This document shows, piece by piece, positions 6,686-63,865 of a DNA stretch of 64,000 nucleotides (the first letter of the stretch is position 1; the number at the start of each line of letters is the position of its first letter). The notes beneath the pieces are model-generated. The model did no database searches, was not told the DNA's origin, and saw only the letters and a program-made list of their open reading frames with translations. This DNA comes from a virus, in the IMG/VR virus record IMGVR_UViG_3300008963_000002, positions 1 through 64,000 of that record; one strand, given 5' to 3'. A program made the translations under genes and the position numbers.

Positions 6686-8005
6686 GTGTCATTTTTTCGT
6701 GACTTTTTTAGTGGGTTTGTCGCTCGGGATAACCTAAGAGACGCACAGCATGCTCATAAGACGTTTACCTCAAACAATTATGAGCTTGCTCCGCGTAATA
6801 AATTTCTATTTCATGTTTATTTTACTCTTAATACGGAGATTCCCGGGCTTCGTTCTGTCTTTGGGCAGGATGAACAATCTACAATTGGGCTATTAGTTAA
6901 AACAACTGATCTGCCAAGTTACGCAATAGACAGTGACACATACAACCAATACAATCGTAAGCGTATTGTTCAAAAGAAAATAGAGTATAATCCTATTGAA
7001 ATGACGTTTCATGATGATGCGTCAGACTTAACAAGACGGTTATGGTACAACTATTTCAGTTATTACTATCGTGACCCGAGCCAAGGTTATGGTAGTGCTG
7101 GTGCAATTTCAGAAGACCCCGGATTTACATACTCAGAAAGAGACATATATTCTCCAGAAAGAAAAGCAAATGATTGGGGTTTTTATGGCGAAGGGTTTGG
7201 TTCTGGTGGTGAGTTAATTCCAAAACCTGCATTTTTTCGTGATATAACAATCTATGGGTTTAACCAACATCGCTGGGCAAGTTATGTTTTGATAAACCCT
7301 CTTATTACTGAATGGAATCATGATCGGTATGATTATAGTGCAGGTGAAGGCATTATGGAAAATCGTCTGCGTGTTTCGTATGAATCTGTAAAATATTATT
7401 CTGGTTTGATTGGTGTAGACGGCAACTCTACAACGGTTCCTGGATTTGGCAACCCAACACATTACGACAAAGTTACGAGTCCCAACTCCAGACCCGGCGG
7501 AAATCAAACTGTGTTTGGTCAGGGTGGATTAGTAGATTCTGGTTTAAGTGTTGTAGATGACCTTGCTAATGGCGATATATTAGGAGCAATCCAAACCGCT
7601 GGGCGAGCAAGGGAAACATTCAGCGATTCCGACATTGGAGACATTGCAAAAGAAGAAGCAACCGCAGCAGCAATTTCCACTGCAACCGGCGTGGCCGCTG
7701 GTGTTGTTGGCTCAGTTGCACAAAGAACAAGCCAAAACAGTTCTGAAAGTTTTAATGTCCCCACCCCCAATTCTGATACGATAATACAACAATCAGACGG
7801 CACTTTTGTTAGAAAAGAGTCTGGTGGGGGGAGAACAGAATCGTTGGGGGCAAGACCTGAACCAACTGCGACAACCTCTCCTGCCCAAAATACGTCTGGA
7901 ACCACAACAACTCTTCCAATCGCTTTTCCGGCTGAGCCACCAGAAGATATACCAGAAGGTGAGCCCTTAACGCCATTAAATAATGCCAATGGTGAAAATG
8001 AGTAA
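6686..8005 (+). CDS. Second tail-tube-like structural protein with long disordered tail
   Basis: 439 residues, starting at GTG two bases after the gp19 stop. Residues 1-235 contain a gp19-like layout: an N-terminal PRNKFLFHVYF strand, the VKTTDLPSYAID segment and the KKIEYNPIEMTFHDDASD pattern. The remaining 200 residues are low-complexity (Gly, Thr, Pro, Ser, Glu) and probably disordered. I interpret it as a tube-related protein, perhaps at the tail end or baseplate junction as in other marine T4-like phages. T4 itself has no direct counterpart of this size. Confidence 0.75.
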   Translation: MSFFRDFFSGFVARDNLRDAQHAHKTFTSNNYELAPRNKFLFHVYFTLNTEIPGLRSVFGQDEQSTIGLLVKTTDLPSYAIDSDTYNQYNRKRIVQKKIEYNPIEMTFHDDASDLTRRLWYNYFSYYYRDPSQGYGSAGAISEDPGFTYSERDIYSPERKANDWGFYGEGFGSGGELIPKPAFFRDITIYGFNQHRWASYVLINPLITEWNHDRYDYSAGEGIMENRLRVSYESVKYYSGLIGVDGNSTTVPGFGNPTHYDKVTSPNSRPGGNQTVFGQGGLVDSGLSVVDDLANGDILGAIQTAGRARETFSDSDIGDIAKEEATAAAISTATGVAAGVVGSVAQRTSQNSSESFNVPTPNSDTIIQQSDGTFVRKESGGGRTESLGARPEPTATTSPAQNTSGTTTTLPIAFPAEPPEDIPEGEPLTPLNNANGENE

Positions 8006-56947: not shown

Positions 56948-57919
56948 ATGCTATTTGAACAACAACTATCAAGAAAACCCGACCACTATCCTTGGACAAA
57001 ACAATTTATTGACGCAATTTGGAGCGGATTCTGGACTCCAGATGAGTTCAACTTCAGATCAGATTATAGTCAGTTCAAAACTGACCTTACAGAACAAGAA
57101 CAAGAAGTAGTAGTAAGAGCACTATCAGCAATAGGTCAGATTGAAGTTGCCGTAAAATCATTCTGGGCAAATGTTGGAACACATCTTCCTCATCCTTCAA
57201 TCAATGATCTTGGTTATGCTATGGCAAACTCAGAAGTGATCCATAATATGGCTTACGAAAAATTATTAGACGTTCTTCATCTTACCCATGTGTTTGAAGA
57301 AAACCTCAACGAAGAAGTTATTCGCGGCAGAGTCAATTATCTCCGCAAGTATAATGAAAAAGTTTATGAGAATGATCGCAAGCAATTCATTTATTCAATA
57401 ATTCTCTTTACTCTGTTCGTTGAAAATGTCTCATTGTTCTCACAGTTTTATATTGTTATGCATTTCAACAGAAACCGTGCAGTTTTAAAGGACGTAGCAC
57501 AGCAAGTACAATATACTCGTAATGAGGAAATGCTACACAGTCAGGTTGGTATCAAACTTATTAATACTCTTCGTGAAGAGTACCCAGAACTTTTTGATGC
57601 TGAATTAGAAGAAAGAATTGCACACGAATGTTTAGAATCAATTAAGGCTGAGGGAAGAGTAATTGATTGGATGGTAGGCGATTATGCTATAGAAGGATTG
57701 GACAAAGATATCCTTAAGGCGTTTGTTGCTAAGCGAATGAAAGATTCTCTTGACCAAATAGGTTTTGATAGTTCAATGGTAAAGTATGATAAATCCTTAG
57801 CAGACAAAACATTTTGGTTTGATGAATCAACATTAGGTTCAACAATGACAGATTTCTTCCAAAAACGACCAGTTGAATATTCTAAAGGTCAAGGAATTTC
57901 TGCTGACGAACTTTTTTAA
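56948..57919 (+). CDS. nrdB: Ribonucleotide reductase, class I beta subunit
   Basis: 323 residues from the ATG at 56948, with AGGAGAATCA as ribosome site; an in-frame start 46 codons upstream lies inside the previous gene. The diiron ligands are visible: E in GQIEVAVKSFW (in place of the usual Asp), E and H in NSEVIHNMAY, E in FVENVSLFSQF, and E/H in NEEMLHSQVG. The radical Tyr is the Y of HNMAY, four residues after His as in NrdB. It generates the radical passed to NrdA. T4 NrdB is 388 residues. Confidence 0.92.
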   Translation: MLFEQQLSRKPDHYPWTKQFIDAIWSGFWTPDEFNFRSDYSQFKTDLTEQEQEVVVRALSAIGQIEVAVKSFWANVGTHLPHPSINDLGYAMANSEVIHNMAYEKLLDVLHLTHVFEENLNEEVIRGRVNYLRKYNEKVYENDRKQFIYSIILFTLFVENVSLFSQFYIVMHFNRNRAVLKDVAQQVQYTRNEEMLHSQVGIKLINTLREEYPELFDAELEERIAHECLESIKAEGRVIDWMVGDYAIEGLDKDILKAFVAKRMKDSLDQIGFDSSMVKYDKSLADKTFWFDESTLGSTMTDFFQKRPVEYSKGQGISADELF

Positions 57920-57980
57920 TTGGAACGCATAATATAAAAGAATGAACTATTTTGACTATAATAAAACAAAGGAGATACAC

Positions 57981-59660
57981 ATGGGGTTTGACTGGTTAAA
58001 CAAAGATGCACGGACATTTTTGTCTCGTGGATATCTGTCGAAAGGACAATCGGCAGAAGATCGTATTAGAGAAATTGCAGACACTGCTGAGAAATTTCTT
58101 GATGTAGAAGGATTTGCAGATAAATTTTACGATTATATGGGACGTGGATTTTATAGCCTGTCATCCCCTGTGTGGTCTAATTTTGGAAACAACAAGGGAC
58201 TTCCTATTTCTTGTAATGGGGCATATGTTGGTGATGAAATTTCTAAAGTAATGGATAAAGCCAGTGAAGTTGCAATGCAAACCAAGCACGGAGCCGGTAC
58301 TAGCGGTTATTTTGGTGACATACGCCCACGTGGATCAAAAATAAAAACAGGCGGTACTGCTGATGGGCCTGTTCATTTTATGAATATTTTTGAAACCGTC
58401 ACTGATGTTATTAGTCAGGGCAATGTCCGACGTGGTTCTTTTGCTGCTTATTTGGATATTGAACACCCTGATGTTGAAGAATTTTTAGAAATTCGTGAAG
58501 TTGGTCATGCTATTCAAAATATGTCAATTGGCATTTGCATTTCAGACGAATGGATGGAAAGCATGATAGCAGAGGGCGAAGCAGTTAAAGCAAAAGAAAT
58601 GGCCTCAACTGATGCTAAAAAACTTCAACTATGGGCACGTGTTATGCGTAAGCGTCGCGAGTCAGGCTACCCTTATCTTTTCTTTACTGATAATGTTAAT
58701 AATAACAAACCCAAGGTTCTAAAAGATCGGAACCTACCAGTATATGCATCAAACCTCTGCTCAGAAATCTGCTTACCTTCTAACAGCGAGGAATCATTTG
58801 TATGTAACTTGGCATCTATGAATCTTCATACCTATGACGAGTGGAAAGACACGGATGCTGTCAAAGTTCTAACCTATTTCCTTGATGCTGTCATGACAGA
58901 TTATATTGAAAAAACTGCAGATATTGATTTTATGCAAGCCCCTCATAACTTTGCTAAGAGATGGAGAGCAATTGGCATTGGCCAACTTGGATGGCACACA
59001 TACCTTCAATATAAGATGATTCCATTTGAATCATTTAACGCTATCAATCTTGCAACAGAGATTTCAAAGCATATTGATGAAGAAAGCCTTAAGGCATCAA
59101 AAGAAATGGCAGATCGTTATGGTGAGCCAGATGGTCTTATTGGATATGGTGAGCGTAACTTGACAAGATGTGCAATTGCACCTACAACAAGTTCAAGTTT
59201 TATTCTTGGTCAGGTATCACCTTCCATTGAGCCACTGCGTTCAAATTATTTCACAAAAGATTTGGCAAAGGGACAATTTACTTTTAAGAACCCGTACCTT
59301 GCTCGCGTACTTGAATCATATGAAAAGAACGATGATGAAACATGGATGTCAATTTTGACAAACAATGGGTCAGTGCAACATCTTGATTTTCTTGGAGAAA
59401 CTGAGAAAGAGGTGTTTAAGACTTTTGACGAAATTACTCCAATCACAATCGTTCAACAAGCAGCAGCAAGACAGCAGCATATTGACCAGAGTCAAAGCCT
59501 TAACTTGATGATTCCGCCAGAAGCACCAGCCAAGGATGTCAATCAGTTGGTTATTGAAGGCTGGAGAATGGGAGTCAAGACTTTCTATTACCAGCGTAGT
59601 TCTAACCCATCATTAGAGTTAGTTCGTGATATAATGAATTGTTCTGCATGTGAGGCATAA
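57981..59660 (+). CDS. nrdA: Ribonucleotide reductase, class I alpha subunit, short
   Basis: 559 residues from ATG 57981 preceded by AAAGGAGATA; an earlier ATG at 57942 has no such site. Redox C78 (PISCNG), radical-site N258-x-C260-x-E262 in SNLCSEICLPS, C275 (VCNLASMNL), Y-Y pair in KTFYYQRS and the C-terminal CSACEA pair are all present. It lacks the N-terminal ATP-cone (T4 NrdA 754 residues), so overall activity control by dATP should be absent. Reduces NDPs to dNDPs for phage DNA, using glutaredoxin encoded downstream. Confidence 0.93.
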   Translation: MGFDWLNKDARTFLSRGYLSKGQSAEDRIREIADTAEKFLDVEGFADKFYDYMGRGFYSLSSPVWSNFGNNKGLPISCNGAYVGDEISKVMDKASEVAMQTKHGAGTSGYFGDIRPRGSKIKTGGTADGPVHFMNIFETVTDVISQGNVRRGSFAAYLDIEHPDVEEFLEIREVGHAIQNMSIGICISDEWMESMIAEGEAVKAKEMASTDAKKLQLWARVMRKRRESGYPYLFFTDNVNNNKPKVLKDRNLPVYASNLCSEICLPSNSEESFVCNLASMNLHTYDEWKDTDAVKVLTYFLDAVMTDYIEKTADIDFMQAPHNFAKRWRAIGIGQLGWHTYLQYKMIPFESFNAINLATEISKHIDEESLKASKEMADRYGEPDGLIGYGERNLTRCAIAPTTSSSFILGQVSPSIEPLRSNYFTKDLAKGQFTFKNPYLARVLESYEKNDDETWMSILTNNGSVQHLDFLGETEKEVFKTFDEITPITIVQQAAARQQHIDQSQSLNLMIPPEAPAKDVNQLVIEGWRMGVKTFYYQRSSNPSLELVRDIMNCSACEA

Positions 59661-59661
59661 T

Positions 59662-59901
59662 ATGGCATATATTACTGAAGTAGCACAAGAACGCCCCCTT
59701 TCTGAGGGGGACCAAATTAAGGCAGCAATTAGAGAATTATTCTGTGAATCAAGAAACGGTGCAGTCTATACAAAAGACCAACCTTTAATAAAATTGATAG
59801 GCAACGTAAACGGCAGTGGTGCTACAAAGATGCTGTGTCTGTTTAAGCATCCGGATATATATGGTGCTGTTGTTATGTGGTATGAAGACCAAAAAGAATA
59901 A
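59662..59901 (+). CDS. Small conserved protein between nrdA and glyA
   Basis: 79 residues from ATG 59662, two bases after nrdA. Pattern: EGDQIKAAIRELFCESRNGAVYTKDQPLIKLIGNVNG (in parts), then a beta-strand LCLFKHPDIYGAVVMWY. Not recognised. Near its start the DNA has CCCCCT (59694-59699) pairing with AGGGGG (59705-59710), a stable hairpin within the coding region that could modulate transcript flow from nrdA to glyA. Confidence 0.6.
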   Translation: MAYITEVAQERPLSEGDQIKAAIRELFCESRNGAVYTKDQPLIKLIGNVNGSGATKMLCLFKHPDIYGAVVMWYEDQKE

Positions 59902-59915
59902 AAACTGAGCCATTG

Positions 59916-61067
59916 ATGAATTACGATATTGAACAAATTCTCAACAAAGAAACCAAAAGACAAGACAGCACTATAGAATTAATTGCAAGTGAAAACTTTG
60001 CATCAGATGATGTTAGAAGTCTTTGTGGGTCAATATTTACTAACAAATATGCTGAGGGATATCCCGGTGCTCGTTACTATAATGGTTGCGAACATATGGA
60101 TGAAATTGAAACACTCGCTATTGATTTAGTTACTAACCTCTATGGTGCAAAGTTTGCCAATGTTCAGCCGCATTCGGGTGCTAATGCAAACACAGCGGTA
60201 TATCAAGCATTCTTAAAACCCGGTGATGTAATATTAGGCATGGATTTGGCATCAGGCGGTCATCTTTCTCATGGTGCTAAAGTTAATATATCAGGAAAAG
60301 TATATAAATCATATTCTTATGGTGTAGATGAAAACGGGTTTCTTGATTATGATGCAATAGAAAGCATTGCTAATGAAGTGCATCCACATATTATAGTCGC
60401 AGGTGCATCTGCATATCCTAGAGAAATTGACTGGAAGCGGTTTAGACAGATAGCCGATGACGTGGGTGCATATCTGCTAGTGGATATGGCTCATTATTCT
60501 GGGCTAATTGCTGGTGGTGCTTATCCAAATCCAGTTCCATACGCTGATTTTTTGACTTCAACTACACATAAAACTCTTCGTGGTCCCCGTGGCGGTATGA
60601 TATTGTGGAACAATGAGGAATACAGTAAAAAAATAAACTCCGCCATATTCCCCGGCACACAAGGTGGTCCTCTTATGAATATTGTGGCTGCTAAAGCACA
60701 GTGTTTCTCAGAGGCATTAGATGTATCATTTCAAGATTATAGTAAAAAAGTCATTGAAAATGCAAAGGCGATGTGTGATGTTTTTAGGGATAAGGGAATA
60801 AAGACACTAACTGATGGCACTGATAGTCATATTATTTTGCTTGATTTATCAGAAACACAATGGTCTGGCAAGGCTGCTGCTGATCTCTTAGAATCTAATG
60901 GAATCACGGTAAATAAGAATGGCATACCAAATGACCCAAGAAATTTTTTAGAAACATCTGGTATACGAATTGGAACAGCCGCTGAAACTACCAAGGGACA
61001 TGATGCCCAATGGTTTAGAGAATTAGCAAGCCGTATTGCAGATATCCTAAACAACAAAGAGGGATAA
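59916..61067 (+). CDS. glyA: Serine hydroxymethyltransferase
   Basis: 383 residues from ATG 59916 (a TTG one codon earlier is possible). SHMT signatures: ELIASENF, GYPGARYYNG, NVQPHSGANAN, VDMAHYSGLIAGG (D190, H193) and TSTTHKTLRGPRGG with the PLP Lys at 219. Slightly shorter than bacterial SHMT (about 415). It makes 5,10-methylene-THF from serine, the one-carbon donor for thymidylate, so it fits beside ribonucleotide reductase in nucleotide supply. It is followed after 4 bases by cydA. Confidence 0.95.
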   Translation: MNYDIEQILNKETKRQDSTIELIASENFASDDVRSLCGSIFTNKYAEGYPGARYYNGCEHMDEIETLAIDLVTNLYGAKFANVQPHSGANANTAVYQAFLKPGDVILGMDLASGGHLSHGAKVNISGKVYKSYSYGVDENGFLDYDAIESIANEVHPHIIVAGASAYPREIDWKRFRQIADDVGAYLLVDMAHYSGLIAGGAYPNPVPYADFLTSTTHKTLRGPRGGMILWNNEEYSKKINSAIFPGTQGGPLMNIVAAKAQCFSEALDVSFQDYSKKVIENAKAMCDVFRDKGIKTLTDGTDSHIILLDLSETQWSGKAAADLLESNGITVNKNGIPNDPRNFLETSGIRIGTAAETTKGHDAQWFRELASRIADILNNKEG

Positions 61068-61071
61068 CCCA

Positions 61072-62391
61072 ATGGACTTTTTGTCTGACCCACTAGCACT
61101 ATCAAGATTGCAATTTGCATTCATAGTAACATTTCATGCTGTATTTCCGGTATTTTCTATCGGTCTTGCATCGTTTATTGCGTTGCTTGAAGGACTGTAT
61201 TATAAAACAGGTAACGCAGCGTATCATGCATTAGCGGGGTTCTGGACAAAAGTTTTTGCCATTGCATTTGGCATGGGGGTTGTATCTGGCATAGTAATGT
61301 CATTTCAGTTTGGCACTAACTGGAGCAACTTTTCGCAGATGTCAGCTAATTTTCTTGGACCAGTGCTGAGTTATGAGGTTATAACTGCATTCTTCTTAGA
61401 GGCTGCGTTCTTGGGTGTGTTGTTATTTGGTAGGGATAAAGTCCCTGCAGGAACACATTTATTTGCAGCAATTATGGTTGCTGTTGGCACGTTCGTTTCT
61501 TCTTTCTGGATTTTGGCTGCTAACTCTTGGATGCACACACCAGCAGGAATAGAAGTAATCAATAACACAATTCATGTTGTTGATTGGAGTGCTGCCATTT
61601 TTAATCCATCATTTCCTTATCGTTTTGTACATATGGGAATTGCCAGTTTCTTGACTGGTGCATTTGTCGTGGGCGGCGTAAGTGCTTGGTTTATAATGAA
61701 AAATAAGGATGTTGAAATACACAAAAAAGCATTATCAATGTGTATGTGGCTAATTTTATTTGCAGCACCTGCTCAGATTATTGTGGGTGATTTTCATGGG
61801 TTGAATACATTAGAATATCAACCCCCTAAGTTGGCTGCGATGGAGGGCAACTGGGAAACCTCAGGAAATGTCCCTCTCTTACTATTTGCAATTCCAGATC
61901 AAGAAAATCAAACTAACCACCTTGAGGTTGGGATACCTAGTTTAGCAAGTGTCATATTAAAGCATGACCCCGACGGTATTGTTCCCGGGTTAGATCAAAC
62001 ACCGAAAGAAGAACAGCCTTGGGTTTTTGGTGTATTCTGGTCATTCAGAGTTATGGTTGGAATTGGTGTATTAATGGCACTGGCAGCAGTGATGTCACTT
62101 GGTTTGCGTATGACAGGAAAGTTATATACTAACAAATTATTTCATAAATTCTTGGTATTAATGATTCCAGCCCCGTTTGTTGCAGTTATTGCTGGGTGGT
62201 TTGTCACAGAAATTGGTAGAGCACCTTGGTTAATACATGGAATTATTACACATGCAGACGCATTAACTCCATCTTTAACAGGACCAATGGCACTCACCAG
62301 TTTAATTGGTTATATATCAGTATATGCAATTGTATATGCCGCTGGACTACACTATATTTTAAAAACAGTAAAGGCTGGGATTGTAGATTAA
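61072..62391 (+). CDS. cydA: Cytochrome bd (CIO-type) quinol oxidase subunit I
   Basis: 439 residues, about nine hydrophobic segments, ribosome site AGAGGGATA. CydA residues are conserved in order: H22 (E. coli H19, haem b595), E102 and E110 (E99, E107), H187 in YRFVHMG (H186, haem b558), K253 and E258 in PPKLAAMEGNWET (Q-loop K252, E257), M328 in FWSFRVMVG (M393), and E380 in GWFVTEIGRAPW (GRQPW region, Gln replaced by Ala). The short Q-loop fits the cyanide-insensitive (CioA) branch. It reduces O2 with quinol at the inner membrane. No cydB follows. Confidence 0.95.
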   Translation: MDFLSDPLALSRLQFAFIVTFHAVFPVFSIGLASFIALLEGLYYKTGNAAYHALAGFWTKVFAIAFGMGVVSGIVMSFQFGTNWSNFSQMSANFLGPVLSYEVITAFFLEAAFLGVLLFGRDKVPAGTHLFAAIMVAVGTFVSSFWILAANSWMHTPAGIEVINNTIHVVDWSAAIFNPSFPYRFVHMGIASFLTGAFVVGGVSAWFIMKNKDVEIHKKALSMCMWLILFAAPAQIIVGDFHGLNTLEYQPPKLAAMEGNWETSGNVPLLLFAIPDQENQTNHLEVGIPSLASVILKHDPDGIVPGLDQTPKEEQPWVFGVFWSFRVMVGIGVLMALAAVMSLGLRMTGKLYTNKLFHKFLVLMIPAPFVAVIAGWFVTEIGRAPWLIHGIITHADALTPSLTGPMALTSLIGYISVYAIVYAAGLHYILKTVKAGIVD

Positions 62392-62394
62392 TTA

Positions 62395-63039
62395 ATGCCA
62401 AAGCCAGCAGACTTATCTAAGATAAGTAATTGCGTGGAAACAAGAAAAAAATATATATTGGGACTCGGACATCCAAGAACAGGGACTAGATTTACTAGTA
62501 AAATTCTTAAAAAGTGGGGGCTGGATGTTGACCATGAAAGATTCGGAGATGATGGTATAGTCGCTTGGCAGTTAATAAAAGAACAAGGACCATATCCCTA
62601 TACAATACAAGTTGGTTGCAGACCAAATTTTGATTTCTTAATTTATAATGTTAGGAATCCTTATTATTCCATCCCATCTATAGTCTATACTGAAGATAAT
62701 AAAGAAAAGTCATTTGATTATAGAAAGAAAATTCTTGGATTATCTGATTCTGATAACCCAATAGAAAATGCCATTTTAAGTTTGTGTCTTTATGATTTAA
62801 AAGTTGTAGAAATGAATCCTGATGTCACATTTAGAGTAGAAGATGAGCAATTAAAACTTTTTGAATCTTTAAGTAAAAATGGCATTTCTGCAAAATTTTC
62901 AGTACATGACAAAAAAGAAAACACAAGAAAACATAAAAATTTTGACGAAATGATAGAACAATTTGCAGAAGTTTCAGAGGATGTAAAGAAATTAATTAAT
63001 AAGTTTTCTGAAAAGTATGGATATGAAAAAGTGTTTTAA
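62395..63039 (+). CDS. Sulfotransferase-like P-loop protein
   Basis: 214 residues, AT-rich, three bases after cydA. GLGHPRTGTRF at 23-33 is the PAPS-binding 5'-PSB-like loop of sulfotransferases, and YNVRNPYYSIPSIV resembles the 3'-PB motif (R-x-P). The C-terminal part is Lys-rich and helical. It may sulfate a glycan made by the phage glycosyltransferases, though kinases share the P-loop shape. The neighbour downstream is a glycosyltransferase, overlapping by one base. Confidence 0.68.
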   Translation: MPKPADLSKISNCVETRKKYILGLGHPRTGTRFTSKILKKWGLDVDHERFGDDGIVAWQLIKEQGPYPYTIQVGCRPNFDFLIYNVRNPYYSIPSIVYTEDNKEKSFDYRKKILGLSDSDNPIENAILSLCLYDLKVVEMNPDVTFRVEDEQLKLFESLSKNGISAKFSVHDKKENTRKHKNFDEMIEQFAEVSEDVKKLINKFSEKYGYEKVF

Positions 63040-63620
63040 TGACTATTGTAACTTCTTTCTATACACCAGAATGGAAATATCCAGAATATGCCACTCAATT
63101 ATCTTTAGATTGTGAGAGATTAGGCTTAGATTATCATATTGTAGAGAAGAAATCATATGATGACTATCGTAAAAATTGTAATATAAAACCTCTTTTTATT
63201 AGAGAAACACTTGAAAAATTTAAGAAACCAATATTCTGGATGGATGTTGATGGCGGAATAATTACTAAACCTGATTTGCTGTTTAGTGATGACATTATGA
63301 ATTACGATATCGCAGCAAATCATTCGGTAAATCAAGTAGATAGAATTCATGTTGGTTCAATATGGTTTAATTATTCTAAAAGAACAATGAAATTTGTCAA
63401 TGCATGGTGTGATGAAATTGCAAAAGGTGGAATAGATGATGGTATATTCAATATTGTATGGAAAAAATTTTCAGAAGAATTAAAACTTTTTGAATTACCC
63501 TCAAATTATTTTGTTTTATTAAAAATCCCCGGAGAACCAATACCAGAAGATGCATGTATAATACATCGGCTTTCTGATTCCTTACTCAAATCTAAACATA
63601 AACAACGGAGAAAAAAATGA
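63039..63620 (+). CDS. Putative glycosyltransferase, GT-A like
   Basis: 193 residues. YATQLSLDCERLGLDYHIV and IFWMDVDGGI with D69-x-D71 (DxD) resemble a small GT-A domain, and IHVGSIWFNYS gives the acceptor-side strand. The C-terminus ends HKQRRKK, probably basic and flexible. It overlaps the next gene by 4 bases. Sugar and acceptor are unknown. With the sulfotransferase-like gene it may form a small surface-modification pair inside the metabolic module. Confidence 0.65.
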   Translation: MTIVTSFYTPEWKYPEYATQLSLDCERLGLDYHIVEKKSYDDYRKNCNIKPLFIRETLEKFKKPIFWMDVDGGIITKPDLLFSDDIMNYDIAANHSVNQVDRIHVGSIWFNYSKRTMKFVNAWCDEIAKGGIDDGIFNIVWKKFSEELKLFELPSNYFVLLKIPGEPIPEDACIIHRLSDSLLKSKHKQRRKK

Positions 63621-63865
63621 GTGCAATAATCTGGACAAAAAATCAATGCATTTATTGTGAATGGGCTAAGAAACTTCTTCAAGATAATGAAATTGAATTT
63701 GATGAAAGAAACATCAATACAGATTATACTAAAGATCAAATGGTTGATTGGCTTACAGAATATCATGATATTAATCCAGAAGAAAAAATTACGATGCCAC
63801 AGATAATTGTTGCTGGGCATTATGTTGGTGGCTTTACCGAGTTAAAGCAGCATTTAAAATCTTAA
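63617..63865 (+). CDS. Glutaredoxin
   Basis: 82 residues with the CIYC active site at C11-C14 and the TMPQI cis-Pro loop and GG of VGGFTEL near the end, a standard glutaredoxin. It can reduce the NrdA C-terminal Cys pair, as T4 NrdC does for its reductase, so it completes the nucleotide-reduction set in this region. Confidence 0.92.
   Translation: MSAIIWTKNQCIYCEWAKKLLQDNEIEFDERNINTDYTKDQMVDWLTEYHDINPEEKITMPQIIVAGHYVGGFTELKQHLKS

Follow-up and report, generated by a model that had tools for sequence, protein, structure and literature searches.

An apparently solo gene for cytochrome bd-type quinol oxidase subunit I recurs in T4-like phages

Through psbA and psbD, cyanophages contribute one subunit to a multi-subunit electron-transfer complex of the host, a likeness to the phage cydA gene described here, although that complex is photosystem II and not a respiratory oxidase. 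CydAA′ systems, attributed to Murali et al. 2021, reportedly have a CydA-type protein without CydB in the form of two diverged CydA paralogues; the phages considered here likewise have no detectable CydB, but we found only one CydA in the 65.8-kb phage record. The plastoquinol terminal oxidase PTOX consists of one subunit with a di-iron centre and is not related to CydA. Carried by cyanophages (PMC3037559), it resembles phage cydA in being a phage-encoded quinol-to-O2 oxidase of T4-like phages with a sporadic distribution, but differs in acting in photosynthetic hosts. A bd-oxidase in a viral contig has been reported for a hydrothermal-vent virus (Langwig et al. 2025, PMC12043954), which however has both subunits, cydAB, whereas the phage group here has cydA only, recurrently and in syntenic T4-like contigs. 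Among the reads listed by a virome survey in 2013 are some of cydA (PMC3877843), and our literature search, which left subscription journals and preprints mostly uncovered, returned no report of recurrent solo cydA in T4-like phages. Bacterial CioAB of Marinobacter, Halomonas, Methylohalomonas and Ectothiorhodospiraceae share with phage CydA 64-70 % identity, the same fold, the same haem, quinol and arginine residues and the same short Q-loop, and differ from it in the two respects considered below, an adjacent cydB and a longer C-terminal tail.

The window, by which we mean the whole stretch of 64,000 nucleotides that was analysed, belongs to a 65,824-bp virus contig (IMG/VR record IMGVR_UViG_3300008963_000002) that is identified as viral by its T4-type terminase, tail sheath, tail tube and replicative helicase, supporting the claim of the preliminary description that cydA is phage-encoded. 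Among phage isolates, even the nearest are only distantly related T4-like phages (terminase 54 %, NrdA 58 %). The cydA ORF starts with ATG, 5′ of which lies the purine-rich run AAAGAGGGATAACCCAATG, and its neighbours are listed in Table 1. The ORF directly 3′ of cydA occupies the place that cydB has in bacteria; it had been called sulfotransferase-like, a label that remains unproven as the ORF has no significant Pfam match. The glutaredoxin gene, 3′ of cydA in the window, sits between nrdA and glyA in other cydA phages.

Table 1 Features of the cydA region of the window and predicted D-amino acid dehydrogenase genes of sister phages
Feature	Position	Strand	Remarks
nrdB, ribonucleotide reductase small subunit	56948..57919	+	start inferred by comparison with relatives; reading frame open from 56810
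nrdA, class I ribonucleotide reductase large subunit	57942..59660	+	same operon as cydA; synteny
small ORF between nrdA and glyA	59650..59901	+	83 aa
glyA, serine hydroxymethyltransferase	59913..61067	+	PF00464 E=4e-146; usual 5′ partner of cydA in the phage group
cydA/cioA, cytochrome bd-type quinol oxidase subunit I	61072..62391	+	439 aa; haem and quinol-site residues intact; shortened C-terminal tail
ORF directly 3′ of cydA	62395..63039	+	function unproven; not a CydB
ORF of unknown function	63039..63620	+	
glutaredoxin	63617..63865	+	PF00462 E=2e-10
D-amino acid dehydrogenase	L106:7767-8936		
D-amino acid dehydrogenase	L096:10434-11603		
D-amino acid dehydrogenase	L092:9921-11207		
D-amino acid dehydrogenase	L102:6861-8093		

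Pattern scans of IMG/VR identified eleven further contigs with cydA, the products of which are 67-76 % identical to the window protein, making 12 cydA phage contigs in all, eleven of which derive from eight IMG/VR source ids. Most have a nucleotide-metabolism operon with the gene order nrdB-nrdA-grx-glyA-cydA as far as the contig extends, and in several relatives T4 RNase H is among the genes 3′ of cydA, again a T4-like context. A search for the gene in other T4-like marine genomes had been suggested; the eleven contigs bear out the T4-like setting, while a marine one could not be confirmed, and a literature search by IMG id retrieved no publication on the sampling sites. One contig (L004) has reductase genes of another lineage (NrdA 49 %, NrdB 35 %) yet retains glyA-cydA, another (L002) lacks glyA with cydA still present, and a third (L090), with an NrdA 92 % identical to that of the window, has neither glyA nor cydA at the same site, patterns from which we conclude that the glyA-cydA module is recurrent but optional. 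The arrangement at L004:3630-6572 suggests replacement of nrdAB beside the kept glyA-cydA pair. A 110-aa ORF adjoins cydA or glyA in two phages (L002:3526-3858, L011:905-1237), that of L002, without a Pfam match, occupying the place of glyA.

Most other viral contigs containing CydA are cydAB pairs or contig-edge matches, some of them beside an integrase-like gene, and on this pattern the locus could be taken for host DNA contamination, a prophage flank or a chimeric assembly. The 12 contigs however have phage context, usually share the same glyA-cydA junction, form one clade and are without an identified cydB, and the base composition of the window copy is that of the phage; with independent syntenic contigs and composition in agreement, we consider such an origin ruled out for practical purposes. 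A chimeric join at the locus, named in the preliminary description as an outcome that would refute it, is excluded because several independent contigs have the same glyA-cydA junction. The other CydA-containing viral contigs were not counted as additional examples, since cydA in these is next to a cydB or at the edge of the contig. Three contigs (L170, L171 and L176) end in cioA right after an integrase-like ORF (ORF at approximately 6692-7834; cydA from 7989 or 7917), a layout suggestive of temperate phages integrated beside a host cioAB operon. Two contigs of >300 kb with cydA, CAKLQH020000001 and CAKLQF020000001 ('Acinetobacter phage MD-2021a'), look bacterial although filed as phage.

A match to PF01654 (Cyt_bd_oxida_I) spans residues 10-436 of the phage CydA (E=2.4e-156), a full-length domain, and the closest solved relatives are subunit 1 of E. 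coli bd-II and bd-I and Geobacillus CydA. On alignment to E. coli CydA/AppC, the window residues H22, E102, E110, H187, M328, E380, R326 and R383 correspond to H19, E99, E107, H186, M393, E445, R391 and R448 of the haem-ligand/active-site set, K253 and E258 to K252 and E257 of the quinol site, both present, and W386 to W451. The preliminary description had judged the protein intact from H22, E102, E110, H187, K253, E258, M328 and E380, each of which thereby finds its E. coli counterpart. All 11 aligned key residues are kept in each phage copy that reaches the position, which rules out a loss of catalytic residues, and no phage cydA copy has a premature stop codon; neither a lost haem ligand nor stop codons in relatives, both put forward beforehand as grounds for refutation, were encountered. 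The textbook GRQPW motif reads GRAPW in the window protein and GRSPW in the remaining phage copies, but A or S at this position also occurs in 21/73 bacterial relatives, so that the departure cannot be considered a phage-specific loss or defect. No column conserved in ≥ 93 % of bacterial relatives is altered in the window protein. An AlphaFold2 model (pLDDT 91.7) meets the criterion of a nine-helix CydA fold as predicted; bd-oxidase chains of CydA type account for all of its best PDB matches (TM 0.92 to 5doq_A), and CydB chains follow as the next structural matches. The phage protein lacks the C-terminal Q-loop insert and groups with short-Q-loop (CioA-like) bacterial proteins, and from its sequence it is of the short-Q-loop/CIO (CioA) subtype, as first described, although cyanide-insensitive activity itself is not shown.

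Phylogenetic trees of CydA from phages and bacteria recover a single phage clade (support 100/99) nested within gammaproteobacterial CioA, surrounded by proteins from largely halophilic or marine genera, including Marinobacter, Halomonas, Chromohalobacter, Methylohalomonas and Ectothiorhodospiraceae. The larger tree places the clade beside an Ectothiorhodospiraceae MAG (99/95), while the smaller leaves the exact sister unresolved. GC3 of the window cydA is 0.31, compared to 0.20-0.30 for other genes of the same phage and 0.63-0.93 for bacterial cioA, suggesting long residence in the phage; the contigs of the other phage copies are higher in GC, and the copies agree with them in composition. 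As dS was saturated for most pairs, dN/dS was taken only from the two least diverged pairs with dS <1 over the full gene, giving 0.053 and 0.085, with similar values for nrdA. The selection claimed in the preliminary description is thus supported, and the gene is inferred to be under strong purifying selection (dN/dS 0.05-0.09). Patchy presence, and the absence of glyA-cydA from the same site in the close relative L090, would be expected of a recently captured, non-functional passenger; low dN/dS, intact reading frames throughout, deep divergence of the phage copies and the retained operon order argue strongly against it and leave it very improbable. Being host-derived, virally flanked and under purifying selection, cydA meets on sequence grounds the criterion for a viral auxiliary metabolic gene, although expression and an effect on host metabolism are not shown.

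Of chief importance, and given little weight in the preliminary description, is the apparently missing partner. cydB adjoins cydA in 73/73 bacterial relatives but in 0/11 phage contigs with at least 700 bases 3′ of cydA, and the criterion for a complete CydAB, cydB next to cydA, is not met. No match to PF02322 was present in any of the 12 virus records, and when IMG/VR was scanned independently with an alignment of gammaproteobacterial CioB, no CydB of this type was detected in the cydA phage group. The scan matched only four contigs, at 46-52 % identity, of which three are cydAB pairs outside the group and the fourth has its match near one end of the fetched stretch. A hidden cydB is rejected on these results, although a divergent cydB elsewhere in the genome is not fully excluded because all phage records are partial. 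The phage cydA is therefore apparently solo, the catalytic half without the CydB half. Its product also ends 7-13 residues past the last lysine of helix 9, compared to 13-50, mostly 25-50, in bacterial relatives, so that the phage protein is not identical to a host subunit.

The absence of cydB and the shortened tail could indicate that phage CydA works without CydB, as a monomer or homodimer in the way suggested for CydA systems that have no CydB, perhaps as a haem-based scavenger of O2, H2O2 or NO and not as a proton-motive oxidase; a CydA-CydA pair is conceivable because the folds of CydA and CydB are homologous, CydB chains being the next structural matches to the model (PMC6853902). The sequence is however conventional CioA throughout, down to the unaltered ≥ 93 %-conserved columns, and no relaxation is seen in helices 2 and 3, which putatively face CydB; we regard this explanation as unlikely while retaining it. 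In E. coli bd-I, CydA contacts CydB through helices 2, 3 and 9 (PMC6853902). Among the phages helices 2 and 3 are 98-100 % identical compared to 81 % for the protein overall, whereas conservation of helix 9 is no higher in the phages (0.70) than in bacteria (0.68). Conservation of helices 2 and 3 is consistent with retained pairing with host CydB but is no proof of binding, since both helices also carry haem-site and proton-path residues.

As no cydB was found in the phages, we infer that phage CydA probably combines with host CydB during infection. The conservation of helices 2 and 3, consistent with such pairing, is why we favour, as the probable reading, a working CioA/CydA that pairs with host CydB as a hybrid quinol oxidase, with expression, activity and host all untested, over function independent of CydB and over a dominant-negative or decoy. 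In the last case phage CydA would displace host CydA or soak up CydB and haem, shutting down respiration or blocking a competitor; a solo subunit with a shortened tail could serve this purpose, but a decoy would not need the catalytic and quinol-site residues, all of which are kept, and with strong purifying selection protein-wide, including the quinol site, we think it improbable, more so than function without CydB. The preliminary description had proposed that the gene either maintains redox balance or quinol oxidation during infection or replaces host CydA in its complex; since no cydB was detected in the phages, the latter has the stronger support, while the function itself is inferred. 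Jointly with the working hybrid oxidase, we likewise hold it probable that the phage lineage captured cydA from a cioAB operon of Gammaproteobacteria, in the simplest case in a single event, and has retained it in the absence of cioB. In the proposed hybrid mechanism cydA would be expressed together with nrdA/glyA during infection, and its product would insert into the host membrane, bind host haems and join host CioB via helices 2, 3 and 9. The hybrid oxidase would then move electrons from quinol to O2, so that NADH/quinol turnover continues and proton-motive force is maintained during dNTP synthesis by the phage, and would also limit O2/ROS or sulfide inhibition, by analogy with the role ascribed to cyanophage PTOX and psbA in maintaining electron flow in the host.

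Contigs of L092, L094, L096, L101, L102 and L106, sister phages in which glyA-cydA is absent, carry a predicted D-amino acid dehydrogenase gene (Table 1). The L106 copy scores 519.5 against a curated D-amino acid dehydrogenase cut-off of 494, and the other copies are 81-95 % identical to it. Matches in the phage collection to this dehydrogenase were restricted to bacterial-looking 'Acinetobacter phage MD-2021a' contigs with dadA, sisters of the cydA-containing MD-2021a records named above. cydA and D-amino acid dehydrogenase occurred together in no record examined, the records being partial. Since the electrons released by D-amino acid dehydrogenases enter the quinone pool, both phage groups may act on the same pool. 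Somewhat short of an even chance, in our estimate, is the wider proposal that one T4-like phage lineage remodels terminal respiration of the host by exchanging the catalytic subunit alone, giving a chimeric bd oxidase of phage and host, and that its sisters act on the input side of the same quinone pool via D-amino acid dehydrogenase. Photosynthetic electron-transport genes of phages are well known, whereas hardly any documented case exists of phages controlling the aerobic respiration of heterotrophs. From a conserved catalytic subunit without its partner one would predict a phage-host hybrid oxidase that sets the O2 consumption and proton-motive force of the infected cell, and if both the subunit swap and the input-side enzyme of the sister phages are confirmed, respiratory control in lytic infection would be a recurrent phage strategy in heterotrophs.
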